NCBI GenBank assembly: GCA_020062665.1
Contig: JAGUVW010000026.1
Location: forward strand, 1-64,000
Source: Pseudomonadales bacterium
GTDB taxonomy: Bacteria > Pseudomonadota > Gammaproteobacteria > Pseudomonadales > Ketobacteraceae
Direction of reading: 5' to 3'
Length of the DNA: 64,000 nt
Notes under the pieces: model-generated
The model's input: the letters and a program-made list of their open reading frames with translations, nothing else
Told to the model about the DNA's origin: nothing
Database searches by the model: none
Program-made: the position numbers and the translations under genes
In this document: piece by piece, positions 43,836 through 44,249 of the stretch
Numbering within the stretch: position 1 is the first letter of the stretch
Layout of the letters: the number at the start of each line of letters is the position of its first letter

Positions 43836-43915
43836 GATGAATATCTCCTCCAGGTTTCAATCCACACACAGGGTTGTGGGCGCAAGGCGAGAGTTGCCTA
43901 TCGCACCGGGACAGG

Positions 43916-43931
43916 AGCAGGCTTTGTGCCA
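43916..43931 (-). promoter_or_regulatory. Sigma-54 promoter of nifHDK
   Basis: On the minus strand the element reads TGGCACAAAGCCTGCT: perfect -24 (TGGCAC) and -12 (CTGC) with GG-N10-GC spacing. It lies 81 bp before nifH. NifA sites begin 110 and 171 bp upstream. Confidence 0.87.
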
Positions 43932-44040
43932 ATCCGTTTTTTAATAGTCAAGCTGCTGAAAATACAGAAATTTGGATCGAGCACTCCGAGCGATGGGCCA
44001 GTGACATACACAACAAATCACAGCCGACTTGTCGGTTGCT

Positions 44041-44056
44041 TGTTGCAATGGCGACA
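44041..44056. promoter_or_regulatory. NifA site 1 in the nifH / SIR2 divergent region
   Basis: TGTTGCAATGGCGACA fits TGT-N10-ACA. It lies 110 bp from the nifH sigma-54 element and 135 bp from the plus-strand one. The 414-bp gap between the two genes holds these regulatory sites and no gene. Confidence 0.78.
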
Positions 44057-44101
44057 AACTTTTGTGGAGGGAATTTCATTCCCGTTCAACAGCGGAATGT
44101 G

Positions 44102-44117
44102 TGTTGCAAACACGACA
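44102..44117. promoter_or_regulatory. NifA site 2 in the nifH / SIR2 divergent region
   Basis: TGTTGCAAACACGACA fits TGT-N10-ACA and shares the outer bases TGTTGCAA...CGACA with site 1, 61 bp away. It is 171 bp from the nifH element and 74 bp from the plus-strand element. A weak sigma-54-like string (CGGAATGTGTGTTGCA, 44093-44108) overlaps it. Confidence 0.78.
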
Positions 44118-44190
44118 AATTGTCGGCTTCGACCACCGCTTACGGTTTCGCCGGTTCAGTCAACCTCACGGAATTTCACAGCTTTTCTGC

Positions 44191-44206
44191 TGGCGCAACT
44201 CTTGCT
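44191..44206 (+). promoter_or_regulatory. Sigma-54 promoter for the SIR2-like gene
   Basis: TGGCGCAACTCTTGCT has one mismatch in TGGCAC-N5-TTGCT and the correct GG-N10-GC spacing. It lies 44 bp before the SIR2-like ATG. The two NifA sites lie 74 and 135 bp upstream, the usual range, so this gene pair is probably expressed together with nifHDK. Confidence 0.75.
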
Positions 44207-44249
44207 CACGGTTACGCCAGCACATTCATATCTCAAGAAGGAGCAACCG

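Follow-up and report, generated by a model that had tools for sequence, protein, structure and literature searches.

Why is a gene for a SIR2-like protein read away from nifH across a gap with sigma-54 promoters on both sides, and what could such a protein do for nitrogenase? The question is raised by one locus in the window, by which we mean the whole 64,000-nucleotide stretch of Pseudomonadales DNA that was analysed: a 414-bp gap (43836-44249) separates the nifH start codon (43835, minus strand) from the ATG of the SIR2-like gene (44250, plus strand). By position, orientation and order this gene appears to match pnfA (PST1325), and its neighbour PST1324, of Pseudomonas stutzeri A1501, and the window is a further instance of the already known nifH-pnfA arrangement. 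The bridge to A1501 is the protein of S. azotifigens DSM 17556 (L017), which shares 68% identity with the window protein; for PnfA of A1501 and that of P. azotifigens, the excerpted text of PMC2820453 gives 92%. L017 shows the same order of nifH, pnfA and partner genes, as do L020 and L021 of S. stutzeri, and in the window and in L002-L023 pnfA is divergent from nifH and has a PST1324-type partner beyond it.

The control region between nifH and pnfA

The features of the locus are the following.

42954-43835, minus strand: nifH, nitrogenase iron protein (TIGR01287, 474 bits, over cut-off)
43916-43931, minus strand: -24/-12 sigma-54 element of nifH, TGGCACAAAGCCTGCT; predicted start 43905; in position in 34 of 34 gaps
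44041-44056, no strand assigned: NifA-type site 1, TGT-N10-ACA, TGTTGCAATGGCGACA; from the motif scan
44102-44117, no strand assigned: NifA-type site 2, TGT-N10-ACA, TGTTGCAAACACGACA, then TTGTCG, giving CGACAA-A-TTGTCG; conserved in the 11-gap alignment
44191-44206, plus strand: -24/-12 sigma-54 element of pnfA, TGGCGCAACTCTTGCT; predicted start 44217; in position in 33 of 34 gaps
44250-45098, plus strand: pnfA, SIR2-like, 282 aa; Leu174 (KPLG) where other SIR2_2 proteins carry His
45146-45709, plus strand: partner gene (PST1324 position), 187 aa; no family or fold match found

The original prediction, made from the letters of this DNA, had placed a minus-strand sigma-54 element before nifH at 43916-43931, a plus-strand one before the SIR2-like gene at 44191-44206 and two TGT-N10-ACA sites between them; all were recovered, both elements having the GG and GC spaced as for sigma-54, and the two stretches said to be common to the sites, TGTTGCAA and CGACA, do occur in each. 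Its statement that both sites lie within 70-175 bp of both promoters holds when distances are taken edge to edge, at 110 and 171 bp from the nifH element and 135 and 74 bp from the pnfA element (74-171 bp overall), but not from the transcript starts, the centre of the farther site being about 205 bp from the predicted nifH start. Those starts (43905 for nifH, 44217 for pnfA) are predictions counted from the -12 position, with predicted leaders of about 69 and 33 bases respectively, and the two sites are 61 bp apart. A 760-aa open frame on the plus strand (42816-45098) also runs antisense through nifH and enters pnfA in frame; it is mechanical, yet could mislead automated placement of the pnfA start.

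For the comparison across relatives, 80 of 110 confirmed PnfA relatives were analysed, and the gap count was restricted to loci whose nifH lay in the fetched stretch and was divergent at no more than 1.1 kb. This excluded 47 of the 80, leaving the window and 33 loci, that is, 34 gaps that share ancestry and are not independent. The original prediction had proposed aligning this gap across relatives to see whether both -24/-12 elements are kept, and they are: the nifH element is in position in all 34 gaps and the pnfA element in 33, the exception (L022) having the element with a 201-base leader. At least one strict TGT-N10-ACA site is present in every gap, with two or more in 24 and one in 10. 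A MAFFT alignment of 11 gaps brings out the nifH element, invariant at 11 of its 16 columns, and each of the two sites, invariant at 9 of 16, and the CAACAA to the left of site 1 and the TTGT to the right of site 2 are also conserved; the pnfA element falls out of register there because leader lengths differ, and its conservation therefore rests on the position scan. The palindrome pattern CGACAA-TTGTC is found at site 2 in 16 of the 34 gaps.

In the 24 gaps with a pair of sites, the spacing between them is 49-50 bp in five, 60-62 bp in six and 69-72 bp in seven, three classes that differ by steps of about one helical turn, and the other six are 57 bp (L022), 76 bp (L069, L071 and L072) and 78-79 bp (L024 and L025), the last five loci carrying three or four sites, which makes their pairing ambiguous. 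With the IHF consensus taken from general knowledge, 12 of 34 gaps hold a strict match in the interval from the last site to pnfA, compared with 0.5% of mononucleotide shuffles; none was found at this place in the window.

We read the gap as a bidirectional nif control region, in which NifA bound at the two central sites would contact sigma-54 polymerase at both flanking -24/-12 promoters, so that during nitrogen fixation nifHDK would be transcribed in one direction and the pnfA pair in the opposite one. Each site is likely common to both promoters. It is unlikely, though it should be kept in view, that each site works for one gene only, site 1 for nifH and site 2 for pnfA, the back-to-back promoters being merely close: site 2 is indeed nearer to the pnfA element (74 bp) than to that of nifH (171 bp), site 1 is nearer to the nifH element (110 bp) than to that of pnfA (135 bp), and most gaps do hold two strict sites or more. 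However, all 10 gaps with a single strict site keep both promoters, even if imperfect sites could suffice in them, since one-mismatch sites occur nearby in several (weak evidence for so short a motif). The four distances between sites and elements are, moreover, all workable for sigma-54 activators, which can act at 74-171 bp. One published result speaks against simple co-regulation: in the excerpted figures of a P. stutzeri hfq study (PMC11332353), the log2 values are +2.46 for PST_1325, +2.79 for PST_1324 and -1.66 for nifH, which is an RNA-chaperone effect, but the transcripts of the two sides can part.

Taken singly, such elements are weak evidence, while the combined layout is strong evidence and well beyond chance. 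The window holds 18 TGT-N10-ACA sites against 13 expected, seven one-mismatch sigma-54 sites against five expected, and 131 sigma-54 sites scoring at least 18 on our own scale (maximum 22), for which the consensus and weights were taken from general knowledge. Both promoters in position together with a site were seen in none of 20000 dinucleotide shuffles of the window gap and in one of 6142 random real stretches of equal length from the same loci, versus 33 of 34 orthologous gaps, the score cut-off and position limits having been fixed after a first scan of the gaps and used identically in the controls; a chance layout was rejected on these controls. Hardly any credence can be given to the idea that the pnfA-side element and sites are chance matches and that pnfA is driven by a constitutive promoter of its own, for although sigma-54-like matches are as frequent in this DNA as the count of 131 indicates, the pnfA element is in position in 33 of 34 gaps versus 3.4% of shuffles, no sigma-70-like site was found in 43836-45760 (1.1 expected), and pnfA of A1501 is published as nifA- and rpoN-dependent (PMC2820453, excerpts).

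A sigma-54 score of at least 20 with a TGT-N10-ACA 40-200 bp upstream occurs in the whole window only at 28410, 43916 and 44191. Further sigma-54-like elements (score of at least 18) with such a site upstream are 28410-28425 (minus strand, site 28520), 37487-37502 (minus, site 37547), 20064-20079 (minus, sites 20161 and 20204) and 53136-53151 (minus, site 53304), and these are possible extra NifA promoters, or chance.

Both regulators are encoded in the genome of the window and score over cut-off, NifA at 709.6 bits and RpoN at 489 bits. We hold it very probable that nifH and pnfA are both under NifA-sigma54 control; for pnfA in the window's own organism, such control is what its sequence and the analogy with A1501 suggest. 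In the excerpts of the A1501 study (PMC2820453), PST1325 is up 9.68-fold, PST1324 25.99-fold and nifH 94-fold under nitrogen fixation, and qRT-PCR with mutants of nifA and rpoN led the authors to conclude that pnfA is NifA-sigma54 dependent; when the island is carried by an E. coli strain, PST1325 is up about 9-fold (PMC6053447, excerpts). The expectation, also part of the original prediction, that the SIR2-like pair is co-induced with nitrogenase is thus supported by the conservation of the gap and by the published induction in A1501, and would extend to the organism of the window.

Distribution of the family and its neighbours

A PnfA profile search of 274 sampled genomes of the class gave 23 matches, 15 of them strong (E < 1e-130) and eight belonging to a distant second subfamily (E 1e-33 to 1e-19). 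Among the 23 carriers, 21 have nifH over cut-off and the other two have it as a fragment (G079 and G268, the latter also with nifD over cut-off), and PnfA is found in none of the 247 genomes without nifH. Four nifH carriers are without PnfA (G068, G177, G057 and G194), which brings the genomes with nifH to 27 in all. In the phylum sample, whose 398 genomes overlap the class sample, 14 of 17 PnfA matches are accompanied by nifH, the exceptions being G308, with nifD over cut-off, and G332 and G513, with only a NifD-like match below cut-off; there, 26 of 40 nifH-positive genomes lack PnfA. The family is thus linked to nitrogenase without being necessary for it. Seven of the eight class-sample members of the second subfamily share a contig with nifH and are at most 25 kb from it, and the eighth is on another contig.

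Directly downstream of pnfA, the 187-aa partner is found in 23 of the 80 loci, a match to a hemerythrin-domain gene takes its place in 39, and neither is present in 18; four of the 39 hemerythrin-type loci also carry the partner, divergently. The hemerythrin-type gene, for which a Pfam hemerythrin match was shown in one member (an example is L028, 6838-7248), comes right after pnfA in many Gallionella- and Sideroxydans-type loci. It fits an oxygen-related role, without being proof of one. The 187-aa protein would be an operon partner of PnfA. At E 0.1 neither Pfam nor NCBIfam gave a match for it, and its AlphaFold2 model (pLDDT 92.6) gave a best Foldseek E of 0.026 and a best VIA Z of 3.5, matches not worth naming and not in themselves a demonstration of a new fold.

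The idea of a constant association with DraT, the NAD-dependent ADP-ribosyltransferase, was considered and rejected, as the window's genome is without DraT and so are 15 of the 23 PnfA carriers. DraT was found in 11 of the 27 genomes searched for it and matched in 17 of the 80 loci, lying between nifH and pnfA in all 15 of these that show nifH.

Further along the window, just past the pnfA pair, is a G+C-rich stem (45692-45719) whose T run lies on the minus strand; this orientation would make it the terminator of the convergent DUF1569 gene at 45738-46364. Two small plus-strand ORFs at 46511-47100 have GG-type leader peptides (ECQQVSGG and LAEVSGG) and are followed, also on the plus strand, by an HlyD-like ORF and a large ABC-transporter-like ORF (47513-50925), so that 46511-50925, judged by eye from the ORF list, looks like a peptide or bacteriocin export cluster beside the nif region.

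Predicted fold and motif residues of PnfA

The PnfA alignment comprised 55 sequences, namely 54 of the 80 relatives and the window protein, and the best AlphaFold2 model built on it had a mean pLDDT of 87.0 (78.8-87.0 over five models), being weak at residues 181-200, a stretch that is nonetheless highly conserved. This predicted model matches SIR2 NADases over its whole length, with a Foldseek E of 2e-9 to KomC and, in VIA, Z 18.7 and 3.1 Å over 241 residues to the KomBC chain 9v0g_E, followed by entries for ThsA and DSR2 (Z 14.5-17.3) and for classic sirtuins (Z about 12); the model thus indicates a SIR2 NADase-like fold for PnfA. At the sequence level, the window protein reaches 20.4 bits with the Pfam SIR2_2 model (PF13289), under the gathering score of 24.5, and 52 of the 55 aligned members match it at E 0.01 or better, while the PnfA profile found nothing better than E 0.9 among PDB sequences. 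Weak matches to the malonate transporter model MadM, seen for 16 of the 55 members in NCBIfam (best 4.5e-5) and for six with the Pfam counterpart, were taken as spurious.

For comparison, 20 SIR2_2 matches were collected from the sampled genomes, three PnfA-family proteins were set aside and the other 17 aligned. All 17 carry the histidine of the K-x-H-G motif, two of them without the following Gly. We take this residue to be the one named in PDB titles as His146 of KomC and His171 of DSR2. At this position the 80 PnfA loci have Leu in 73, His in five, Met in one and Val in one, and the window protein has Leu174. The T-x-N-Y-D motif reads D-x-N-R-D in PnfA, where Asn115 and Asp117 are invariant in the 55 sequences. 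For the second subfamily we used 15 of the 18 distinct weak PnfA matches from both samples (G262, G513 and G534 were left out); here the motif reads x-x-W-Y, with Trp for the NAD-motif Asn in all 15, and the His position is Leu in seven, His in five, Trp in two and Tyr in one.

Given that 73 of 80 loci, like the window, have Leu where 17 of 17 other SIR2_2 proteins have His, PnfA is probably a non-catalytic protein, and the simplest reading of these residues would be that selection does not keep enzyme activity, with the pocket partly kept. The histidine of five of the 80 relatives and five of the 15 second-subfamily members suggests that catalysis may be possible in part of the family. It is improbable that PnfA is enzymatically active on nitrogenase or its surroundings, as a sirtuin-type deacylase or NADase, in the way suggested for ZMO1821 of Zymomonas mobilis. 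The SIR2 fold of the model, the invariant Asn115 and Asp117, the few relatives that keep the His and the deacetylase suggestion itself (PMC8600466, excerpts) speak for it, but not the Leu found where other SIR2_2 proteins have His, nor the Trp that replaces the motif Asn throughout the second nif-linked subfamily. These residues speak against transferring to PnfA the deacetylase role suggested in the excerpts of PMC8600466 for ZMO1821, a protein compared by description only. That pnfA is a stray anti-phage defence gene, beside nifH by accident, is very improbable even though the nearest solved folds are the defence NADases KomC, ThsA and DSR2, since none of the 55 members matches a PADLOC model at E 0.01, nifH accompanies PnfA in each of the 23 class-sample carriers (as a fragment in two) and the A1501 pnfA mutant has a nitrogenase phenotype (PMC2820453, excerpts).

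Proposed role and known systems

We tentatively propose that PnfA is a nitrogenase-dedicated pseudo-sirtuin, that is, a defence-type SIR2 NADase fold that would have lost its catalytic His and been drawn into the NifA regulon. There it would sense NAD or ADP-ribose, or hold a partner, and allow nitrogenase to function while the cell respires. The adjacent gene would encode a protein without a recognised fold in Pseudomonas-type clusters or a hemerythrin in Gallionella-type ones, and the second nif-linked subfamily would have lost the NAD-motif Asn in addition. PnfA, mostly non-catalytic, would bind an NAD-type ligand or a partner and help nitrogenase under respiring, microaerobic conditions. 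According to the excerpts of PMC2820453, a non-polar pnfA mutant of A1501 keeps nifH transcription and has 23% nitrogenase activity at 0.5% oxygen, is like the wild type anaerobically and loses nitrate-supported fixation; the 2010 authors called PnfA diazotroph-specific on the basis of five homologues. For pnfA, whose mutant phenotype has been clear since 2010, a search of the open-licence literature yielded no mechanism, though a later study may exist, and likewise no paper pairing a sirtuin with a nif gene cluster and no mention of Avin01370.

The promoter layout and induction were already published for A1501; what is new here is the tracking of nitrogenase by the family, its fold class and the missing conserved His. 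The non-catalytic reading of this SIR2 protein makes possible a cheap test of a nitrogenase accessory factor with a clear mutant phenotype. It also bears on how such proteins are interpreted, as at least one paper, in its excerpted text, takes a nif-linked SIR2 protein as a likely deacetylase (PMC8600466), while in the PnfA family the residue for that chemistry is not conserved.

Compared with the SIR2 NADase effectors KomC/HAM-SIR2, ThsA and DSR2, the predicted fold of PnfA matches over the whole length, but identity is 13-17%, Leu stands at the His position, the TTNYD motif is DCNRD and there is no PADLOC match. The nif-linked proteins of Rhodobacter, Rhodovulum and Zymomonas (among them Rcc03262 and ZMO1821; excerpts of PMC6925177, PMC9412634, PMC8594446 and PMC8600466), which were compared by description only, are like PnfA in being SIR2-like and within a nif cluster, and may belong to the second subfamily with Trp for the NAD-motif Asn. 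In the excerpts of PMC6925177, the gene for Rcc03262, a Rhodobacter capsulatus protein of the SIR2 family, is the final one in a nifB1-rcc03265-nifZT operon that has putative sites for NifA and RpoN, and the protein is listed as NF in the nifA double mutant; ZMO1821, in the excerpted description, is upregulated under nitrogen fixation. In A1501 itself, as far as the excerpts of PMC2820453 describe it, the PST1326/PST1325 gap is like that of the window, with divergent genes, a -24/-12 promoter and TGT-N10-ACA between them, and PST1324 beyond pnfA. The layout reported here confirms and widens that result, the control region being kept in nearly all divergent nifH-pnfA gaps examined.
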